Origin: Yoonia sp.
GTDB lineage: Bacteria > Pseudomonadota > Alphaproteobacteria > Rhodobacterales > Rhodobacteraceae
Length of the DNA stretch: 15,681 nt
NCBI GenBank assembly: GCA_020627605.1
Contig: JAHDGO010000016.1
Coordinates: 1-15,681, forward strand
Direction of reading: 5' to 3'
Position numbers and translations under genes: made by a program. The stretch's first letter is position 1; the number at the start of each line of letters is the position of its first letter. Under the pieces are notes generated by a model. It had not been told where the DNA came from, ran no database searches, and was given only the letters and a program-made list of their open reading frames with translations. Shown here piece after piece: positions 1,144 to 9,786 of this stretch.

Positions 1144-1150
1144 AAATTTG

Positions 1151-1741
1151 ATGTCTATTTTTCACCGATCTTTCATGGGAAGTGACGCGCCAACCGTACC
1201 GTCGTTGGGCAAGGACATCCGTGCCTTGCGCAAAGCCCGTGGGCTGACACTGATCGCCCTGTCAGAGGCGATGGGCCGCTCCGTCGGCTGGCTGAGCCAG
1301 GTTGAACGTGACAAATCCTATCCCAGCATCTCTGATCTGGGCCGCATGGCCGAGATACTTGATGTGTCGGTGTCGAGCTTTCTGCAAGTCGATGCCGCGC
1401 CTCAGGAAGAGGGGATCGTCGTGCGCGCCCATGCCCGCCGCCCGATTGGCAGCCGGACAGAGGGCCTGACAGAAACATTGCTGTCGCCTGATCTGACAGA
1501 TGACTTTGAGATGATCCATTCCAGCTTTGCGCCGGGATCACGCATCACAGAGCCGCTGACGCGCCCTACCCAAGAGGTGTGCTATATCGTCAGCGGTCAG
1601 TTCCGCGTCACGATTGCAGACCGCGTCTTTCACCTGAATGCCGGTGACAGTTTCCGCCTGCGCGGAGAGTCTTTCCTGTGGGAAAACCCCGGCGACACCC
1701 CTTGCGAGATCATTTGGGTGATCTCGCCGCCTGTGTATTAG
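1151..1741 (+). CDS. XRE-family HTH regulator with C-terminal cupin domain
   Basis: A 196-residue transcription regulator. An XRE/Cro helix-turn-helix covers about residues 19-78 (LGKDIRALRKARGLTL, then VGWLSQVERDKSYPSISDL). A single-domain cupin covers about 115-196, with EVCYIVSGQFRVTI and LNAGDSFRLRG as the two beta-barrel motifs. Proteins of this architecture (PuuR and SutR types) usually bind a small metabolite or metal in the cupin and control adjacent catabolic genes. It stands first in the run leading to the demethylation genes, 9 bases before the next ORF, so it is the obvious candidate for their control; that is inference. The start is uncertain: TTG 1148, ATG 1151 and ATG 1175 are all in frame and none has a well-spaced ribosome binding site. 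The nearest is GGGAG at about 1124-1128. Confidence 0.85.
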   Translation: MSIFHRSFMGSDAPTVPSLGKDIRALRKARGLTLIALSEAMGRSVGWLSQVERDKSYPSISDLGRMAEILDVSVSSFLQVDAAPQEEGIVVRAHARRPIGSRTEGLTETLLSPDLTDDFEMIHSSFAPGSRITEPLTRPTQEVCYIVSGQFRVTIADRVFHLNAGDSFRLRGESFLWENPGDTPCEIIWVISPPVY

Positions 1742-1750
1742 GGGGCGCCG

Positions 1751-2140
1751 ATGGCCGGGCAGACAGGGCGGTGTGAATGCGGGGCGGTCGCCTATGAGGC
1801 CGACAGCATCAGCGCAACAGCATCCTTCTGCCATTGCAGCCAGTGTCGCCGCACCAGCGGCCATTACTGGTCTGCCGTGATGGCCCCGCTTGACGGCTTT
1901 CGCTTGACGCAGGATCGCGGTCTGGCCTGGTATGCCTCATCCGACTGGGCCAAGCGTGGATTTTGCACCCAGTGCGGCAGCAGCCTGTTCTATCAACTGC
2001 TCTCCGGGGCCGCGATCAACATCGCGACCGGCACGCTTGACGACAGCAGCGGCGTGAGGCCCGGCAAGCATATCTTCTGCAAGGACAGAGGTACATATTA
2101 CGACCTGCCCGGCGACGCGCCACATATCGACACTTACTGA
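1751..2140 (+). CDS. GFA-family (glutathione-dependent formaldehyde-activating-like) zinc protein
   Basis: A 129-residue protein of the GFA / CENP-V fold. The zinc-binding cysteines are in the family pattern: Cys8 and Cys10 in GRCECGAV, Cys27, Cys29 and Cys32 in FCHCSQCRRTSG, and Cys72 and Cys75 in FCTQCGSSLF. The name comes from Paracoccus Gfa, proposed to speed the reaction of glutathione with formaldehyde; that catalytic role has been disputed, and many family members have other or unknown substrates. Here the gene sits 11 bases before a flavoenzyme whose chemistry releases formaldehyde-level carbon, which makes a formaldehyde or S-hydroxymethylglutathione link more credible than usual. 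The ATG at 1751 follows the regulator's stop by 9 bases. The family call is secure and the function is inferred. Confidence 0.85.
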   Translation: MAGQTGRCECGAVAYEADSISATASFCHCSQCRRTSGHYWSAVMAPLDGFRLTQDRGLAWYASSDWAKRGFCTQCGSSLFYQLLSGAAINIATGTLDDSSGVRPGKHIFCKDRGTYYDLPGDAPHIDTY

Positions 2141-2151
2141 GGAGCCCCACG

Positions 2152-4605
2152 ATGGCCGATTTTCCAACCACTGCCCGCGTTGTCATCATTGGTGGCGGCG
2201 TTGTGGGTGTATCCACCCTTTATCATCTGGCCAAGAAGGGCTGGACCGATTGCGTCCTTCTGGAAAAGAACGAGCTGACCGCAGGTTCGACATGGCATGC
2301 CGCTGGCAACTGCCCGAACTTTGCGCCGAACTGGGCTGTCATGAACATGCAGCGCTATTCGCTGGAAATGTATAGGACCCTTGCAGACGACGTCGACTAT
2401 CCGATGAACTATCACGTGACCGGTGCCCTGCGGCTGGGCCACACCAAGGAACGGCGGCAAGAGTTTGAACGTGTCGCCGGTCAGGCACGCGGCATGGGTC
2501 TGCCGCTTGAAATGATCGGCATTGATGAGGTCAAGAACTACAACCCATTTGTCGAAACCCATGATCTGTCCGGTGTGCTTTGGGACCCGCTGGACGGCGA
2601 TATCGATCCGGCGCAGTTGACCCAGGCCCTTGCCAAGGGTGCGCGCGATCTAGGCGCGCGGATTGAGCGTTTCTGCCCGGCCACAGGCGTGTCGAAAAAC
2701 GACGCCGGCGAATGGATCGTGCATACCGACAAGGGCGATATCGCCTGCGAAAAGGTCGTGAATGCCGCTGGCTACTATGCTGCGCGCGTGGGTGACTGGT
2801 TCAAGCCCTTCGGCGGTCGCGACGTGCCGATGGTGGTCATGTCGCACCAGTATTTCCTGACTGAGGAAATCGACGAGATCAAAGCCTGGACCAAGGAAAA
2901 CGGCAAAAAGACCCCGATGATCCGCGACGTGGACAGCAGCTATTATCTGCGGCAGGACAAAAACGGTTTGAACCTGGGACCCTATGAGCGCAACTGCAAG
3001 GCGCATTGGGTGACCAAGGACGACCCGATGCCCGACGACTTCAGCTTTCAGTTATACCCTGACGATCTAGACAGGCTGGAATGGTATATTGAAGACGCCA
3101 TGGCGCGCGTGCCAGTGCTGGGAACCGGTGGCGTCGGCCGTAACATCAACGGCCCCATTCCCTACGCCCCCGATGGCCTGCCGATGATTGGGCCAATGCC
3201 TGGCGTCAAAAACGCCTTTGAGGCACATTCATTCACCTTTGGCATCGTCCAAGGCGGTGGTGCTGGCAAGGTCATGGCCGAATGGCTGATCGAGGGCGAG
3301 ACCGAGATGGATATGTGGGCCGTCGATCCGCGTCGCTACACCGATTACACCGATCACGACTATTGCCACGCTAAGGCGCTTGAAACCTACGGCCATGAAT
3401 ATGGCATGCATTTCCCACACAAGATGTGGCCAGCCGGGCGCGACAAGAAATTGTCGCCGGTTGACGCGAAGGTCCGGGACCTTGGCGGCCAGATGGGGTC
3501 TTACAACGGATGGGAGCGCGCCAACTGGTTCGCCAAAGATGGCGATGATACCTCTGTCGCAGCGACCGAGACATGGGAACGGAACGGCCCATGGAAGGCC
3601 CGCGTGAAAGAAGAATGCGAGGCTGTGCGCGACGGCGTTGGCGTGCTGGACCTGCCCGGCTTTTCCCGGTTCAACCTCGCAGGACCCGGCGCGGCAGAGT
3701 TTCTGCGTGGCCTGATTGCAGGTGCCCTGCCAAAGATTGGGCGGATGAATCTGGCCTATTTCCCCGACAGTCAGGGCCGCCTGCTAACGGAAATGTCGCT
3801 GATCCGCCATGATGAAGATCATTTCACGCTGATCACGGCGGCCTCGGCCCAATGGCATGACTATGATCTTTTGGACAAGCATCTGCCCGAAGGCATCACG
3901 CTGACCGACATTACCCGCGATTTCTCGACCCTGATTGTGACCGGGCCAAAGGCACGTGAGCTGTTTGAGAAAATGGGCACGGATGCCGACCTGACGCTTG
4001 GCTGGCTGACCCATCAACCGGCCACCGTTGCGGGCACAAAATGCAAACTGGCACGCGTCAGCTTTGCTGGTGAACTTGGCTGGGAGATCCACGCCCGTAT
4101 GGCAGATATGCCCGCCCTTTATGATGCGGTGCTTGACGCAGGTGCCACCCCGTTTGGCATGTTTGCGCTGAATGCATTGCGGATCGAAAAGGGCTATCGC
4201 GCCTGGAAGCAGGATTTGTCGACCGACTACACGTTGCTGGAATCAGGGATGGAGCGGTTCATCAAATTTGACAAGCCGCAGGACTTCCCCGGTAAGGCCG
4301 CCTTGCTGAGTGAAAAGCAAAAGGGGCGCAAGAAGGGCTTTGCCATGCTGATCCTCGACAATCCCGGCCCCGCAGATGCCCCCTACATGTCGCCAATCTG
4401 GCAGGGCGACGAAAAGGTCGGCGAGACGACGTCCTGCGACTGGGGCTTCCGTGTGAATAAGTGCATCGCCTTGGGCATGCTGCGCGAAGACCTCAACGCG
4501 CCGGGCAACAAGGTCGAAATCGAAATTTACGGCGAGCGTTACACCGCCACCGTGCAGGAAGATCAGCCGCTGTGGGACCCAAAGAACGAACGCATCCGTG
4601 CCTGA
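2152..4605 (+). CDS. Dimethylglycine dehydrogenase-like FAD/GcvT oxidoreductase
   Basis: An 817-residue flavoprotein of the dimethylglycine/sarcosine dehydrogenase family. It has an N-terminal DAO-type FAD domain (about 1-375; GGGVVG at 14-19, TWHAAG at 47-52), a short central FAO domain, then an aminomethyltransferase (GcvT) domain and its C-terminal barrel (about 460-810; GELGWE at 640-645, LNALRIEK at 673-680). His49 in TWHAAG aligns with the histidine that carries covalent FAD in mammalian DMGDH. The family oxidatively N-demethylates a methylated glycine and passes the methylene to tetrahydrofolate in the GcvT domain, with electrons usually going to ETF. Of the two copies here this one resembles vertebrate DMGDH more: GPIPYAPDGLPMIGP before the end of the FAD domain, and the FGMFALNALRIEKGYRAW block. 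Dimethylglycine as substrate is therefore inferred. A GAGGAG site precedes the ATG, and the stop overlaps or abuts the next gene. Confidence 0.85.
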   Translation: MADFPTTARVVIIGGGVVGVSTLYHLAKKGWTDCVLLEKNELTAGSTWHAAGNCPNFAPNWAVMNMQRYSLEMYRTLADDVDYPMNYHVTGALRLGHTKERRQEFERVAGQARGMGLPLEMIGIDEVKNYNPFVETHDLSGVLWDPLDGDIDPAQLTQALAKGARDLGARIERFCPATGVSKNDAGEWIVHTDKGDIACEKVVNAAGYYAARVGDWFKPFGGRDVPMVVMSHQYFLTEEIDEIKAWTKENGKKTPMIRDVDSSYYLRQDKNGLNLGPYERNCKAHWVTKDDPMPDDFSFQLYPDDLDRLEWYIEDAMARVPVLGTGGVGRNINGPIPYAPDGLPMIGPMPGVKNAFEAHSFTFGIVQGGGAGKVMAEWLIEGETEMDMWAVDPRRYTDYTDHDYCHAKALETYGHEYGMHFPHKMWPAGRDKKLSPVDAKVRDLGGQMGSYNGWERANWFAKDGDDTSVAATETWERNGPWKARVKEECEAVRDGVGVLDLPGFSRFNLAGPGAAEFLRGLIAGALPKIGRMNLAYFPDSQGRLLTEMSLIRHDEDHFTLITAASAQWHDYDLLDKHLPEGITLTDITRDFSTLIVTGPKARELFEKMGTDADLTLGWLTHQPATVAGTKCKLARVSFAGELGWEIHARMADMPALYDAVLDAGATPFGMFALNALRIEKGYRAWKQDLSTDYTLLESGMERFIKFDKPQDFPGKAALLSEKQKGRKKGFAMLILDNPGPADAPYMSPIWQGDEKVGETTSCDWGFRVNKCIALGMLREDLNAPGNKVEIEIYGERYTATVQEDQPLWDPKNERIRA
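3511..3534 (+). repeat. 24-bp direct repeat, copy 1 (in DMGDH-like gene)
   Basis: This 24-base stretch is identical to 7299-7322 in the second flavoenzyme gene. Both copies lie in the same codon phase and encode WERANWFA, residues 454-461 here, in the linker between the FAD and GcvT parts. A related GWE-x-x-x-WF motif occurs in mammalian DMGDH and SARDH, so protein-level conservation explains much of it, but identity at every third position is unusual for diverged paralogues. Confidence 0.9.
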
Positions 4606-4606
4606 G

Positions 4607-5062
4607 ATGCTGACCGCACCGATGAAAGAGCTGATCACCACGTTCCCTTTGGGGTTCGTGGCCACCGTCACTCCTGAGGGCACGCCAGCGGTGTCGCCCA
4701 AGGGCACATTTCTTGTGATGGACGATCAGACACTGGCCTATGGCGATATCCGTTCACCGGGGACGCGCTACAATCTGCAGGCCAATCCGGTGGCAGAGGT
4801 CAATTTTGTCGACCCGTTCAAGCGCAAGGCCGTCCGTGCGGCCGGCACCGTCACCATCAACCGGCGCGGCACTGACTGGTATGACGCCAATATCGCACGG
4901 TGGTTTGACATTTTTGGCGACCTATCAAAGCGGATAACGGCGCTGGTTGCGATCAGGCTGACCTCTGCTACCGAAATCTGGACACCGCCCTATGATGACG
5001 GCGTCACAGAGGGCGAGATGATCGCCACCTATGTGGCCAGGTTCGGGGCGCTTTATCCATGA
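4607..5062 (+). CDS. Pyridoxamine 5'-phosphate oxidase (PPOX) family flavin protein
   Basis: A protein of about 151 residues with the split-barrel PPOX-like fold, which typically binds FMN or F420 and reduces or oxidises small molecules, or binds haem. Family-like segments are LGFVATVTPEGTPAVSPKGT at the N-terminus, RSPGTRYNLQANPVAEVNFVD in the middle (a flavin phosphate-contacting area in relatives) and KAVRAAGTV. It is much shorter than PdxH and lacks its C-terminal substrate motif, so it is not the vitamin B6 enzyme. The start may be GTG 4598, overlapping the previous stop, or ATG 4607 directly after it; no strong ribosome binding site separates them. The stop overlaps the ATG of the methyltransferase gene (ATGA), so translation of the two is likely coupled. 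Its job in the cluster is unknown. Confidence 0.75.
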   Translation: MLTAPMKELITTFPLGFVATVTPEGTPAVSPKGTFLVMDDQTLAYGDIRSPGTRYNLQANPVAEVNFVDPFKRKAVRAAGTVTINRRGTDWYDANIARWFDIFGDLSKRITALVAIRLTSATEIWTPPYDDGVTEGEMIATYVARFGALYP

Positions 5063-5949
5063 CTGATATCGTCCTTCTTGACGGCGGCATGGGGCAAGAG
5101 CTGATCCACCGCGCCGGTGACAGGCCAACGCCGCTGTGGTCAACGCAGGTGATGATTGACCACCCCGGTCTGGTGGCCGCCGTTCATGCCGATTACCGTG
5201 CTGCGGGCGCGACGGTGCAGACGACCAACACCTACGCCATCCTGCGTGACAGGCTGGAGGGCACGGCGATGGCCGATCAGCTGGAGGCGCTTTATGCGGC
5301 GGCTTTGGCCGAGGCCAAGGGGTCGGGCACCATTGCTGGTGCGCTTGGTCCGCTTGGGGCCTCCTACCGCCCTGACCTGTTGCCGCCGCATGACGTGGCC
5401 GTCGCCACCTACCACGAGGTCGCGGCCCTGCTCGCGCCGCAAGTTGATCTGATCCTGTGTGAAACCGTGGCCTCTGTCGCCCATGCCCGCGCCGTGCTGG
5501 AAGCGGCGCATGGGACTGGCAAACCTGTCTGGGTTGCGCTGACGGTGATGGATGACGATGGCACAAGGCTCCGCTCTGGCGAGGCATTGGCGGATGTATT
5601 GCCGCATATGGACAACGCCGCGGCCCTCTTGGCCAATTGTTCATCGCCAGAGGCAATATCAGATGCCATCGCCGTGCTGGCCACGGCGGACAAACCCTTT
5701 GGCGGCTATGCCAACGGTTTTGTCAAAATCACCGATGGCTTTCTGGGGGATAAGCCCACCGTCGACGCGCTGACCGCACGGCAGGATCTGGACCCTGACG
5801 CCTATGCCGCATTTGCCATGGACTGGATCGCGACAGGTGCCACCATCGTCGGCGGCTGTTGCGAGGTTGGCCCGGCCCATATTGCCAGACTGGCTGAAAC
5901 CATCACAGGCGCCGGACATCGCATCATCGCGCCGCGCCTGCCCGTTTGA
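5059..5949 (+). CDS. Zinc-dependent homocysteine S-methyltransferase (BHMT/MmuM type)
   Basis: A 296-residue TIM-barrel methyltransferase that transfers a methyl group from an onium donor (glycine betaine, S-methylmethionine or DMSP in different members) to homocysteine, making methionine. The N-terminal LDGGMGQEL (7-15), the TTNTYA substrate segment (55-60), GALGPLG (94-100) and ILCETVASV (132-140) are typical. The zinc-thiolate site is complete: Cys194 in ANCSSPEA and the pair Cys267-Cys268 in GGCCEVGP. It is shorter than mammalian BHMT (about 400 residues) and closer in length to bacterial MmuM. The neighbours, a DMGDH-like gene before and a SARDH-like gene after, favour betaine as methyl donor with dimethylglycine as product; this is inference. 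The ATG overlaps the upstream stop by four bases. Confidence 0.88.
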   Translation: MTDIVLLDGGMGQELIHRAGDRPTPLWSTQVMIDHPGLVAAVHADYRAAGATVQTTNTYAILRDRLEGTAMADQLEALYAAALAEAKGSGTIAGALGPLGASYRPDLLPPHDVAVATYHEVAALLAPQVDLILCETVASVAHARAVLEAAHGTGKPVWVALTVMDDDGTRLRSGEALADVLPHMDNAAALLANCSSPEAISDAIAVLATADKPFGGYANGFVKITDGFLGDKPTVDALTARQDLDPDAYAAFAMDWIATGATIVGGCCEVGPAHIARLAETITGAGHRIIAPRLPV

Positions 5950-5966
5950 AGAAAAGGATCACGTGA

Positions 5967-8417
5967 ATGAGTAACCTGCCAACTCAGGCCCGCGTTGTGA
6001 TTATCGGCGGCGGTGTTATCGGGTGTTCGGTCGCCTACCATCTGGCGAAACAGGGGTGGAAAGACGTTGTTCTGCTGGAACGCAAACAGCTGACATCTGG
6101 CACGACCTGGCACGCCGCCGGTCTGATCGCGCAGCTGCGGGCCACCAAGAACATGACCAAGCTCGCCAAATACAGCCAGGAACTCTACGGCAATCTGGAG
6201 GCCGAAACTGGCGTCGCCACCGGGTTCAAGCGGTGCGGGTCCATCACCGTAGCCCTGACCGATGAACGTCTGGAAGAGATCAGCCGCCAGGCCGCCATGG
6301 CCCGGTCGTTTGGGGTTGAGGCAGAACCGATTTCGCCAGAAGAGGTCAAGAAGCGCTATGAACCTCTGAACATCGACGGTGTCACCGGCGGTGTCTATCT
6401 GCCGCTGGACGGGCAAGGCGACCCGGCCAATATCGCCCAAGCGCTGGCCAAAGGTGCCCGCCAGAACGGCGCGCTGGTCAAGGAAGGCGTGCTGGTAACC
6501 GGCATCAGTAAGGAAGGGCGCCGCGTCACCGGCGTGACATGGGAAGACAAGGATGGCGAGACCGGCACCATCGCAGCCGAACATGTCGTCAACTGTGGCG
6601 GCATGTGGGGTCATAGCGTGGGCAAGATGGCTGGCGTCAATGTCCCGCTGCATGCCTGCGAGCATTTCTACATCGTCACAGAGTCGATCCCCGGACTGAC
6701 CCAGATGCCGGTGCTGCGGGTGCCGGATGAATGCGCCTACTACAAAGAAGACGCTGGCAAGATGCTGCTTGGCGCCTTTGAGCCCGTGGCCAAACCCTGG
6801 CGGCTGGATATCCCCGGCGATTTCGAATTCGACCAGCTGCCAGAGGATTTCGACCATTTCGAGCCGATCCTGGAACAGGCGGTGGAACGCATGCCAATGC
6901 TGGCAGAGGCAGGCATCCATACGTTCTTTAACGGCCCCGAAAGCTTCACCCCTGACGACGCCTATCACCTTGGTCTTGCACCAGAGCTGGATAATTTCTG
7001 GGTCGCGGCTGGCTTTAACTCCATCGGGATTCAGTCCGCTGGCGGTGCCGGGCAGGCGCTGGCGCAATGGATGGAAGCCGGTGAAAAACCTTTTGATCTG
7101 GGCGACGTGGATATCAGCCGCATGCAGCCTTTTCAGGGCAACAAGACCTATCTGCGGGAACGGTCCACCGAAACGCTGGGACTGCTCTATGCCGACCACT
7201 TCCCCTATCTGCAGAAAAAGACCGCGCGCGGTGTGCGGCGCACGCCATTCCATTATCACCTGCAGGAACGCGGCGCGGTGATGGGTGAATTGGCGGGGTG
7301 GGAGCGCGCCAACTGGTTCGCCCGCGAAAACCAAGAGGCCGAGTATCAGTACAGCTGGAAGCGCCAGAACTTCTTTGACAATGTCCGTGAAGAACATATG
7401 GCCGTCCGCCAGAACGTCGGCATGTATGACATGTCATCTTTCGGCAAAATCCGCGTTGCCGGACGCGCGGCTGAGGCCTTCATGAACTATGTGGGGGGCG
7501 GCAACTACAGCGTGCCGGTGGGCAAGATCGTCTATACCCAATTCCTCAACAGCAGGGCGGGGATCGAGGCGGATGTGACCGTCACGCGGCTGGGTGAGCA
7601 TGACTATCTGGTCGTGACCCCTGCTGCGACGCGTCTGGCCGATCAGATATGGATGGAACGTATCGCGCGCGCCAAGGATTTCGACGTCACCATCATGGAT
7701 GTCACTGCCGGTGAAGGCGTATTGGCGGTCATGGGGCCCCGGTCACGCGAATTGCTGCAGGCCGTGTCGCCCAATGACTTTTCGAATGAGACAAACCCCT
7801 TCGGCACCGCCCAAGAGATCGAAATCGGCATGGGGCTGGCCCGTGTCCACCGCGTCACCTATGTGGGTGAGCTTGGGTGGGAGGTTTATGTCTCTGCCGA
7901 TCAGGCGGGCCATGTGTTCGAAACGCTGGCCGGTGCAGGGTTTGATTTCGGCATGCGCCTGTGCGGGATGCATATGATGGATACCTGCCGGATCGAAAAG
8001 GGCTTCCGCCATTTCGGCCATGATATCACGTCAGAGGATCACGTGATGGAGGCCGGACTGGGCTTTGCCGTCAAAAAGGACAAAGCCGATTACATGGGCC
8101 GCGACGCCGTCCTGAAAAAGCAGGATGAGGGTCTGAACATGCGTCTGTTGCAGTTCAAGCTGACCGATCCCGAACCGCTGCTTTATCATGCAGAACCTGT
8201 GCTGCGCGACGGTGAGATTGTCAGCTACCTGACCTCTGGCGCTTATGGTCATCATGTTGGCGCGGCCATGGGCATGGGTTATGTCCCCTGCAAGGGGGAA
8301 AAGCTGGCCGATGTGTTGGCCTCCACCTATGAAATCGACGTGGCGGGCCGCCGGGTCAGGGCAGAGGTGTCGTCCAAACCTTTCTATGATCCAAGCGGAG
8401 AACGCGCCAAGGCGTGA
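5967..8417 (+). CDS. Sarcosine dehydrogenase-like FAD/GcvT oxidoreductase
   Basis: An 816-residue paralogue of the upstream flavoenzyme with the same layout: DAO-type FAD domain (GGGVIG at 14-19, TWHAAG at 47-52 with candidate flavin-linked His49), central FAO domain, then GcvT and C-terminal barrel (GELGWE at 634-639, DTCRIEKGF at 672-680). It resembles mammalian sarcosine dehydrogenase more than DMGDH: SGTTWHAAGLIAQLR after the nucleotide site, GPESFTPD followed by LAPELDNFWVAAGFNS, and a C-terminus SKPFYDPSGERAK matching the SARDH tail. The predicted reaction is sarcosine to glycine with methylene transfer to tetrahydrofolate and electrons to ETF. Substrate specificity is inferred and dimethylglycine is also possible. 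AAGGA lies about 9 bases before the ATG. The stop is 2 bases from the stop of the opposing cytochrome gene, leaving no room for a terminator. Confidence 0.85.
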   Translation: MSNLPTQARVVIIGGGVIGCSVAYHLAKQGWKDVVLLERKQLTSGTTWHAAGLIAQLRATKNMTKLAKYSQELYGNLEAETGVATGFKRCGSITVALTDERLEEISRQAAMARSFGVEAEPISPEEVKKRYEPLNIDGVTGGVYLPLDGQGDPANIAQALAKGARQNGALVKEGVLVTGISKEGRRVTGVTWEDKDGETGTIAAEHVVNCGGMWGHSVGKMAGVNVPLHACEHFYIVTESIPGLTQMPVLRVPDECAYYKEDAGKMLLGAFEPVAKPWRLDIPGDFEFDQLPEDFDHFEPILEQAVERMPMLAEAGIHTFFNGPESFTPDDAYHLGLAPELDNFWVAAGFNSIGIQSAGGAGQALAQWMEAGEKPFDLGDVDISRMQPFQGNKTYLRERSTETLGLLYADHFPYLQKKTARGVRRTPFHYHLQERGAVMGELAGWERANWFARENQEAEYQYSWKRQNFFDNVREEHMAVRQNVGMYDMSSFGKIRVAGRAAEAFMNYVGGGNYSVPVGKIVYTQFLNSRAGIEADVTVTRLGEHDYLVVTPAATRLADQIWMERIARAKDFDVTIMDVTAGEGVLAVMGPRSRELLQAVSPNDFSNETNPFGTAQEIEIGMGLARVHRVTYVGELGWEVYVSADQAGHVFETLAGAGFDFGMRLCGMHMMDTCRIEKGFRHFGHDITSEDHVMEAGLGFAVKKDKADYMGRDAVLKKQDEGLNMRLLQFKLTDPEPLLYHAEPVLRDGEIVSYLTSGAYGHHVGAAMGMGYVPCKGEKLADVLASTYEIDVAGRRVRAEVSSKPFYDPSGERAKA
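7299..7322 (+). repeat. 24-bp direct repeat, copy 2 (in SARDH-like gene)
   Basis: Identical to 3511-3534, in the same codon phase and again encoding WERANWFA (residues 445-452). The two copies are 3,788 bases apart in direct orientation. Exchange between them would keep the reading frame and fuse the FAD part of one enzyme to the GcvT part of the other, deleting the genes between. Confidence 0.9.
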
Positions 8418-8419
8418 TC

Positions 8420-8866
8420 CTAGTCATGCGGCGGGTTGCGGGCGTCCTGCGCCCGCTGCACGCGTTCGGGCCATGTTGACCTGATAAAGGCCAGCACCTC
8501 CCAGATTTCTTCTTCGGTCAGGGTTTCGGCAAAACCGGGCATGGCGCTTTGAAAATCCGTTATGCCCCGTGCCGCCAGCGCCCCCTGTCCACCAAGCGCG
8601 GTATAGTCGAACAACAACTGGTTGTCGTGATGCCATGTATGCCCGCTTTCGTCATGCGGCGGCGCTGGCATGGTGCCATCGGCATTGCGGGTCTGCCAAT
8701 TGGCCTGACCTTCCAGCCGCGCGCCGTGGCAGGCCGCGCAGTTTTCCTGATAAAGCACTTCGCCATTGGCAATATCACGGTTCTGCATCTGATCAGCGGC
8801 GAAGGCCGAACCACCAGCCGCAAGCAGGGCCAGAGCCACCAGGAAACTGCGCATCAAGTCCATCAT
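8420..8866 (-). CDS. Periplasmic c-type cytochrome, monohaem
   Basis: A 148-residue small cytochrome c. A signal peptide (RSFLVALALLAAGGSAFAA) ends near residue 24. The single haem-binding motif is CAACH (Cys43, Cys46, His47), and Met109 in SAMPGF is the likely second axial ligand, followed by the terminal helix (LTEEEIWEVLAFIRSTWP). The segment MPAPPHDESGHTWHH between them is characteristic of a subgroup of small periplasmic cytochromes. It should shuttle electrons in the periplasm; its partners are unknown. The ATG at 8866 overlaps the stop of the upstream hydrolase gene, suggesting coupled expression. An in-frame ATG at 8854 gives a cleaner signal peptide and may be the real start. Confidence 0.88.
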   Translation of the reverse strand: MMDLMRSFLVALALLAAGGSAFAADQMQNRDIANGEVLYQENCAACHGARLEGQANWQTRNADGTMPAPPHDESGHTWHHDNQLLFDYTALGGQGALAARGITDFQSAMPGFAETLTEEEIWEVLAFIRSTWPERVQRAQDARNPPHD

Positions 8867-9786
8867 CCCATCAGTTGCCCGGCTTCCGGCACCCAGTGGA
8901 ACGCCGCATCGCCGCTGCCGGTGGCGACATAGCCCACTGCGGGGAATGGCATGTGGTAGCCGATGGCGGGAATGCGGTCTGCCGCGATCATGCCAAGCAC
9001 GTTGCGGCGGGATGCCGCCGCGGCCTCTTTATCGGAGTCAAAACGCACCTCCCAGTCAGGGCGCGCCAGCGACCAGACCGGATGGTTCGCGAGATCCGCA
9101 AAGATCACCAACCCCTGTCCAGCGCTATCAAGGCGGTAGACCATGTGGCCGGGCGTATGGCCAAAGGCCGCCATGCCGGTCACGCCGCTGACGACATCAT
9201 CGCCATCGCCAAGGAATGTCATCATCTCGGCCATCGGGCGCACGTTTGCCTCGAACCCTTCGTTTTCGGCGCCGGCCCAGTGATCATATTCGGCCTGACC
9301 GGTGACATAACGGGCGTTGGCAAAGGTCGGCGCGCCATCCTTCATCAACCCGCCGATGTGATCGCCGTGCATATGGGTCAGAACCACCACATCGACCTGA
9401 TCGGCGGCATAGCCTGCCCCCGCCAGCGCAGCAGTGGTCGCATCAGCGTTCAGTCCGGTGTCAAAGAGGATCAGCTCTGACCCGGTGTTCACAAGGGTCG
9501 GCGTGAAGAAAAACTGCGATGCGTCGGTCGAAAGAAAATTGTCGCGGCTGACCTCTGCAAATTCCTCGGCGCTGACGTTCATGCCAAAGATGCCTTGCGG
9601 ATTTTCGCGCGGTGTCGTGCCGCCAAGAATGGTCGTCACTTCGAAATCGCCGATCGTGAAGCGGCGGTGGGTGGCAAAGCTGGCGCCTTGCATCGGGGCC
9701 TCAGCCTGCGCGGTGCCTGCGGCCAATCCGGCCAGTGGCAAGGCCGCACCGGATGCCATCAGGCGGCGGCGGGTCAATGTGGACAT
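8863..9786 (-). CDS. Tat-exported metallo-beta-lactamase-fold hydrolase (methyl parathion hydrolase-like)
   Basis: A 307-residue MBL-fold protein. The N-terminus TRRRLMASGAALPLAGLAAG...AQA looks like a twin-arginine signal, so it probably folds with its metals in the cytoplasm and acts in the periplasm. Metal ligands are complete: HMHGDH (138-143), His214 in GHTPGH, Asp231 in FADLANH and His278 in GYHMPFP. The order of motifs and the C-terminal HMPFPAVGY...FHWVPEAG pattern resemble methyl parathion hydrolase and related lactonase-like enzymes, so ester, phosphotriester or lactone hydrolysis is plausible; the natural substrate is unknown. AGGGAG precedes the ATG at 9786. It overlaps the cytochrome gene by four bases and forms a two-gene unit with it. 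Confidence 0.87.
   Translation of the reverse strand: MSTLTRRRLMASGAALPLAGLAAGTAQAEAPMQGASFATHRRFTIGDFEVTTILGGTTPRENPQGIFGMNVSAEEFAEVSRDNFLSTDASQFFFTPTLVNTGSELILFDTGLNADATTAALAGAGYAADQVDVVVLTHMHGDHIGGLMKDGAPTFANARYVTGQAEYDHWAGAENEGFEANVRPMAEMMTFLGDGDDVVSGVTGMAAFGHTPGHMVYRLDSAGQGLVIFADLANHPVWSLARPDWEVRFDSDKEAAAASRRNVLGMIAADRIPAIGYHMPFPAVGYVATGSGDAAFHWVPEAGQLMG

Follow-up and report, generated by a model that had tools for sequence, protein, structure and literature searches.

A conserved run of two flavoenzymes and a homocysteine methyltransferase in Yoonia sp. and its likely place in dimethylglycine and sarcosine breakdown

Can one run of bacterial genes take glycine betaine all the way to glycine, as vertebrates do? 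The question is raised by contig JAHDGO010000016.1 of Yoonia sp., on which a DMGDH-type flavoenzyme (open reading frame 1, ORF1), a zinc homocysteine S-methyltransferase (HMT) and a DMGO/SARDH-like flavoenzyme (ORF2) are encoded. The window analysed here is this whole contig (C227) of 15,681 bases, part of an assembly of 2.57 Mb in 488 contigs that is 72% complete. The original prediction saw in these genes a mitochondrial-type betaine-to-glycine route, with HMT passing a methyl group from betaine to homocysteine. The run does exist, is conserved and has been described in relatives before; on balance we favour a narrower reading, in which it would be a module channelling one-carbon units from dimethylglycine and sarcosine to folate, with HMT as a methionine side branch and bulk betaine demethylation located elsewhere. 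The run probably falls short of a self-contained route of the vertebrate kind, and betaine breakdown is probably opened mainly by an enzyme other than HMT. The genes concerned, all three intact and, as had been predicted, on one strand, are the following:

2152..4605, + strand: ORF1, DMGDH-type flavoenzyme with a GcvT folate domain (817 amino acids)
5059..5949, + strand: HMT, zinc homocysteine S-methyltransferase (296 amino acids; PF02574, 7.2e-54)
5967..8417, + strand: ORF2, DMGO/SARDH-like flavoenzyme with a GcvT folate domain (816 amino acids)

Glycine betaine is among the major osmolytes of the sea, and to call these genes a full betaine route would bring back a label that later genetics did not support, since the first step in Ruegeria pomeroyi needs cobalamin proteins. 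Furthermore, the methyl donor of an HMT encoded between DMGDH and SARDH would show whether roseobacters possess a further B12-free path to methionine.

The two flavoenzymes

Both flavoenzymes contain the Pfam domains DAO, FAO_M, GCV_T and GCV_T_C. In an alignment of 79 ORF1-type rows, 78 ORF2-type rows, 21 paralogues and two references (duplicates included), the motif TWHAAG, whose histidine we take to be the covalent-FAD residue, is kept in every ORF1-type (79/79) and every ORF2-type row (78/78), which bears out the earlier statement that both enzymes keep this motif together with the GcvT domain.

ORF1 scores 545 bits with rat DMGDH and 273 bits with Arthrobacter DMGO among PDB sequences, and a tree of 31 rows has a branch with 100/100 support that separates 19 of them, namely human and rat DMGDH, ORF1 with four relatives, and twelve Rhodobacteraceae paralogues, the inner order of this group not being settled. 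Besides TWHAAG, the compared letters of ORF1 are H232, Y264-Y265, E547 and E645, of which E547 and Y264-Y265 are those of DMGDH. The comparison was anchored on DMGO residues to which we presume the roles usually given them. H225 and Y259 of DMGO are conserved across all aligned ORF1-type, ORF2-type, paralogue and reference rows. At the position of D552, rat DMGDH has E575 and the ORF1-type rows have E (79/79), whereas the ORF2-type rows have D (78/78); at L258, rat DMGDH has Y293, which is matched by Y in 79/79 ORF1-type rows and replaced by A in 77/78 ORF2-type rows. ORF1 differs from DMGDH at the Y651 position, where the rat enzyme and 77/78 ORF2-type rows have Y and 78/79 ORF1-type rows have F. 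By its sequence ORF1 is of DMGDH type, in agreement with what had been proposed.

ORF2 is less clear-cut, with 458 bits for DMGDH and 412 bits for DMGO. It carries D536, which matches D552 of DMGO, and A257-Y258, and it lies on the tree side opposite DMGDH together with Arthrobacter DMGO, a long branch of unsure position. The earlier SARDH-like assignment thus holds insofar as ORF2 stands apart from DMGDH and has D536, but it sits on the side of DMGO in a tree that held no SARDH of known activity. We call it SARDH-like because it is the partner of ORF1 and because the corresponding gene of R. pomeroyi is named SARDH; it is probably a DMGO/SARDH-like partner of ORF1.

As members of their families, the DMGDH-type and the SARDH-like enzyme are well supported, and conversion of dimethylglycine via sarcosine to glycine by the two is plausible on these grounds. 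In the mechanism that we favour, the run would be a known N-methyl one-carbon module in the form that it takes in Rhodobacteraceae: ORF1 would oxidise dimethylglycine to sarcosine, ORF2 would oxidise sarcosine to glycine, and the GcvT domain of each would hand the released carbon to tetrahydrofolate.

Paralogues of both enzymes occur elsewhere. In three hand-picked genomes, to which this inspection was confined, a paralogous SARDH-like/DMGDH-like pair adjoins an MTTB/MtgB-family gene (L171-L173, in G033, G009 and G031), and the Yoonia genome itself has a DMGDH-like gene with an MTTB/MtgB-family gene directly after it (C380:279-4183, L185).

The methyl donor of HMT

By its sequence HMT is a zinc homocysteine methyltransferase, as predicted. 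Among 113 distinct sequences, a set from which 18 low-identity rows were kept out (including L146-L148, later placed in the HMT clade), the zinc cysteine C194 is present in 113/113 and C267 and C268 in 112/113, with one gap; all three cysteines are common to HMT, MmuM, MetH and MtgE. HMT would be expected to convert homocysteine to methionine, with a sulfonium or quaternary-ammonium compound as the donor, as a side branch of the module.

HMT falls under all NCBIfam cut-offs. Its best family is MmuM (PRK09485, 127.2 of 215 bits), and it reaches 56 of 338 bits with the MtgE-type family PRK07534. In a tree that left out mammalian BHMT, which was compared by fragment, HMT forms its own clade (99/99) apart from MmuM, MetH and MtgE. 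The possibility that HMT is MtgE, the subunit of the split methionine synthase, was ruled out, since MtgE is a separate gene in a separate clade and 27% identical to HMT. W27 of HMT, equivalent to Trp44 of BHMT, for which we assume a betaine role, is kept in 112/113 sequences, and Trp is also found in MmuM. Tyr77, which belongs to the betaine site of human BHMT (PMC3871600, in excerpt), corresponds to position 60 of HMT, where Tyr occurs in 0/113 relatives (A 95, S 6, T 4, C 3, P 2, G 2, N 1).

The predicted structure of HMT (pLDDT 91.2) has MmuM as its best Foldseek match, as does the sequence in the PDB, and mammalian BHMT is farther: the model is 31% identical to MmuM, at 2.0 A over 254-257 residues, and 19-20% identical to BHMT. 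The best Z scores in a structure search were 30.7 for MetH, 30.2 for MmuM and 29.3 for BHMT, rows within 1 counting as tied, so the fold does not decide the methyl donor.

It is possible, if rather doubtful, that HMT functionally is MmuM, a variant of the view favoured here in which methionine would be formed from S-methylmethionine or damaged S-adenosylmethionine for methyl/methionine balance. The family, PDB and Foldseek matches just given point this way, a rhizobial HMT relative (38%) comes after an ABC-transporter gene set, and S-methylmethionine is made by at least one roseobacter (PMC9135737, in excerpt). However, the MmuM score is under its cut-off, the clade is apart from MmuM, VIA-align 2 has MmuM tied with MetH, no amino-acid permease was found among ten neighbours of distant HMT relatives scanned in eight loci, and the link to DMGDH and SARDH would be left unexplained. 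The ten neighbours belong to mixed families, including amidase, MATE, Rieske oxygenase and DAO, and two of them gave no match; in L142 the HMT relative has as its neighbour a Rieske oxygenase that scores best with the NCBIfam family GbcA, at 130 of 670 bits and far under the cut-off.

The assignment of HMT as the betaine step is not supported, given the NCBIfam scores, the separate clade and the absence of Tyr77. Equating HMT with BHMT by residues fails at Tyr77, and we lowered this claim rather than dropping it, since an enzyme of MtgE type is active on betaine in vitro (see below).

Separability of the genes and the cobalamin-dependent betaine step

How firmly do the three genes belong together? 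We compared 80 named loci, the best of at least 590 confirmed ones, which were picked by HMT similarity, a choice that favours close relatives; four of the 80 are cut by contig ends. The named close matches include Yoonia and Loktanella (Rhodobacteraceae in the wide sense). ORF1, HMT and ORF2 follow one another on one strand in 66 of the 80, an arrangement that is not due to chance. HMT stands without either flavoenzyme in ten; eight of these retain part of the usual chromosomal neighbourhood.

A second comparison used 61 family genomes, the genome under study plus 60 relatives at least 90% complete, drawn evenly with one per genus. With orthologue thresholds of E under 1e-60 for HMT and at least 62% identity for ORF1 and ORF2, there are 33 genomes with ORF1, 36 with ORF2 and 29 with HMT. 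Both flavoenzymes are present in 33 of the 61, 23 of these with HMT and ten without it, and among the 29 HMT genomes four have neither flavoenzyme and two more have ORF2 only. In a sample drawn across the class, relatives of HMT were found in 20/241 genomes at 1e-40, four of these being the genome under study and members of its genus or family. In 16 HMT loci of alphaproteobacteria outside the family, taken with about 1.5 kb on each side (one flank of L141 being shorter, and second copies in G157 and G244 left out), ORF1 or ORF2 lay within that distance in none. Within 43 loci holding six genes, HMT is the fastest-diverging gene, with a mean distance of 0.386 vs 0.263 for ORF1 and 0.185 for ORF2.

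Some loci illustrate other surroundings. Plasmid pDSHI02 of Dinoroseobacter shibae (L190) has a lone HMT, with genes for a formate/nitrite transporter and a dihydroneopterin aldolase nearby. Five loci (L072, L086, L101, L108 and L116) have two GFA-family genes ahead of HMT and no DMGDH/SARDH-like match in the locus, that of L108 being short on the upstream side.

The Yoonia genome also contains candidate parts of a different betaine demethylation system. It has five MTTB/MtgB-family matches at 1e-30; an MtgE-type protein (PRK07534, 519 bits) shares one contig (C456) with an MtgC-type B12-binding protein, and an MtgD-type pterin-binding protein was recognised by its domain, MtgC and MtgD being assigned from single domains and open frames. 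An MTTB-family match is present in 29/29 HMT genomes, and the three of 61 genomes without one have no HMT orthologue. Together with the separate occurrence of HMT and the flavoenzyme pair, these genes speak against the self-contained route that had been envisaged. The statement that neither a Rieske demethylase nor heterotetrameric sarcosine oxidase is present was right for the window but not for the genome: the 72%-complete assembly yielded neither a ring-hydroxylating Rieske alpha subunit (PF00848) nor, at 1e-200, SoxA, but it does encode a SoxB-family sarcosine oxidase subunit (634 bits, cut-off 529), and SoxA is over its cut-off in 58/61 family genomes.

Genetic evidence comes from R. pomeroyi, and from this species only, in which others have proven that growth on betaine depends on mtgC and mtgD: mutants in these genes are auxotrophic for methionine, and supplying it does not restore growth on betaine (PMC12478193). 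R. pomeroyi strain SZCCDBG043 (L111) carries the cluster, in the order GFA-ORF1-ADH-HMT-GlxA/AraC-ORF2. The tags of strain DSS-3, SPO3400 for DMGDH and SPO3396 for SARDH (PMC4744692, in excerpt) and SPO3398 for a homocysteine S-methyltransferase (PMC4809877, in excerpt), taken with this order, suggest that DSS-3 has the same cluster. A bearer of the cluster thus still needs cobalamin proteins on betaine. In the reading that we favour, cobalamin proteins of the MtgB/MtgC/MtgD type, whose genes lie outside the window, would likewise carry out the bulk conversion of betaine to dimethylglycine in Yoonia.

Several points weigh against this reading. What the R. pomeroyi result rules out is that HMT suffices for betaine catabolism, not that it takes part in betaine-dependent methionine synthesis. 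MTTB-family proteins can use other methylated compounds (PMC12478193), so their presence alone is no proof of betaine use here. HMT and ORF1 co-occur in the 61 genomes (Fisher p = 2.6e-4, relatedness ignored), and their distances are correlated with a rho of 0.62, the top value of 15 gene pairs in the 43 six-gene loci, which speaks for some functional tie. The purified MtgE-type Bmt of Phaeobacter inhibens forms methionine from betaine in vitro (PMC12366255), although the MtgE type is said to be without betaine-binding residues (PMC12478193), and residues alone therefore cannot exclude betaine. The DMGDH-like member of the MTTB-linked pair is 41-42% identical to rat DMGDH vs 36% for ORF1, so that the substrate of ORF1 may be a different N-methyl compound, and dimethylglycine does not support growth of Roseobacter litoralis or R. 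denitrificans despite their several DMGDH genes (PMC3141670, in excerpt). Finally, the literature matches listed contained no mutant or assay of HMT/SPO3398, SPO3400, SPO3396 or the two flavoenzymes.

Two further explanations draw on these points. In the first, which we regard as unlikely, the N-methyl substrates of ORF1 and ORF2 are different ones, dimethylglycine and sarcosine being left to the MTTB-linked paralogue pair and heterotetrameric sarcosine oxidase. The closer likeness of the DMGDH-like member of that pair to rat DMGDH and the SoxB and SoxA matches would fit, but the DMGDH active-site letters are kept in 79/79 ORF1-type rows, the R. pomeroyi genes are named DMGDH and SARDH in the source excerpted above, and the predicted dimethylglycine- and sarcosine-step proteins rise on betaine (PMC12478193, gene tags not given).

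In the second, which we consider improbable, HMT represents a new class of BHMT and the run a complete betaine-to-glycine route, as the original prediction had it and as Kalhoefer and colleagues proposed in 2011 for the same trio in R. litoralis; both Roseobacter strains grow on betaine (PMC3141670, in excerpt). The co-location in 66/80 loci, the association with ORF1, the conserved Trp44 position and the betaine activity of an MtgE-type relative argue for it. Against it stand the need of R. pomeroyi for mtgC and mtgD, the missing Tyr77, the greater closeness of HMT to MmuM than to mammalian BHMT, the separate occurrence of HMT and the flavoenzymes, and the lack of ORF1 and ORF2 within about 1.5 kb of HMT in the 16 loci of other families. 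We attach similarly little credence to a form of this idea in which HMT is an unrecognised Rhodobacteraceae clade of cobalamin-independent homocysteine methyltransferases that would take a methyl group from betaine or a related onium compound via a non-BHMT site lacking Tyr77, providing methionine when B12 is short, while the flavoenzymes burn the product.

Gene layout and comparison with known systems

Three further genes of the window belong to the surroundings of the run:

1148..1741, + strand: helix-turn-helix (XRE-type) and cupin regulator (Pfam HTH_31/HTH_3/Cupin_2), likely a local regulator
1751..2140, + strand: GFA-family (glutathione-dependent formaldehyde-activating) protein (PF04828, 2.4e-21)
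4598-5062, + strand: PPOX-type flavoprotein (PF01243, 6.5e-13)

The distances of at most 17 bases given earlier apply to HMT and ORF2 (17 bases) but not to ORF1 and HMT, which are 453 bases apart; the PPOX-type gene, which had not been listed, occupies this space and overlaps ORF1 by 8 and HMT by 4 bases. Nor do the genes follow the order of the pathway, as had been claimed, since the gene of the second step comes first, followed by those of the presumed first step and of the third. Only 4 of the 66 loci arranged ORF1-HMT-ORF2 have PPOX between the first two of these genes; Yoonia litorea (L044) has the gene order of the window, PPOX included, plus an ADH gene, and in other relatives ADH, a GlxA/AraC regulator or an aminotransferase, rather than PPOX, is inserted in the cluster.

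The GFA gene ends 11 bases ahead of ORF1 and has a match in 48/66 of these loci; its product would perhaps trap stray formaldehyde. The helix-turn-helix-cupin protein, matched in 62/66, has PuuR as its best NCBIfam family (66.9 bits, under the cut-off of 211) and may regulate the run. A GAF-domain gene also lies upstream of ORF1 on the same strand. Downstream, at 8420-9786 on the - strand, a convergent pair encodes a small cytochrome c and a protein with the metallo-beta-lactamase fold, closest to AidB-type lactonase (89 of 360 bits, under the cut-off). A scan of the window gave no Rfam family and no tandem repeat; promoter-like sites number 2 (3.1 expected) and terminator-like sites 12 (6.6 expected), every one of the latter within called genes.

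Related work places betaine breakdown in Rhodobacteraceae with bhmt1, dgcA and soxBDAG (PMC7574528), and DMGDH and choline genes of Phaeobacter rise on phosphatidylcholine (PMC10132767); the split methionine synthase is treated in PMC5764234 and PMC7311316 (all four in excerpt).

Among the nearest known systems is that of Roseobacter litoralis and R. denitrificans, where RLO149_c039110-c039090 (DMGDH4, candidate BHMT, SARDH; PMC3141670, in excerpt) comprise the same three gene kinds in the same order; R. litoralis was compared by description, and the PPOX gene between ORF1 and HMT is a feature of the window. R. pomeroyi SPO3400-SPO3396 appears to be the same cluster by order and tag numbers, as far as the excerpted sources go, and in strain SZCCDBG043 the identity to the window is 69% for ORF1, 77% for ORF2 and 57% for HMT, with an extra ADH gene and a GlxA/AraC regulator and, unlike the window, no PPOX match. 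Mammalian DMGDH (4PAB, 5L46) matches ORF1 over its full length, and the compared letters are equal except for F638 of ORF1 vs Y671 of the rat protein, which however is 36% identical to the bacterial ORF1, whose substrate is predicted. E. coli MmuM (5DML/5DMM) shares with HMT the zinc cysteines, the Trp and Tyr positions and the fold, but it is about 31% identical, and HMT lies in a separate clade and under the MmuM NCBIfam cut-off. For the MtgB/MtgC/MtgD/MtgE system, a dual betaine demethylase and split methionine synthase, a homologue or domain match of each part is present in the Yoonia genome, on contigs other than that of the window.

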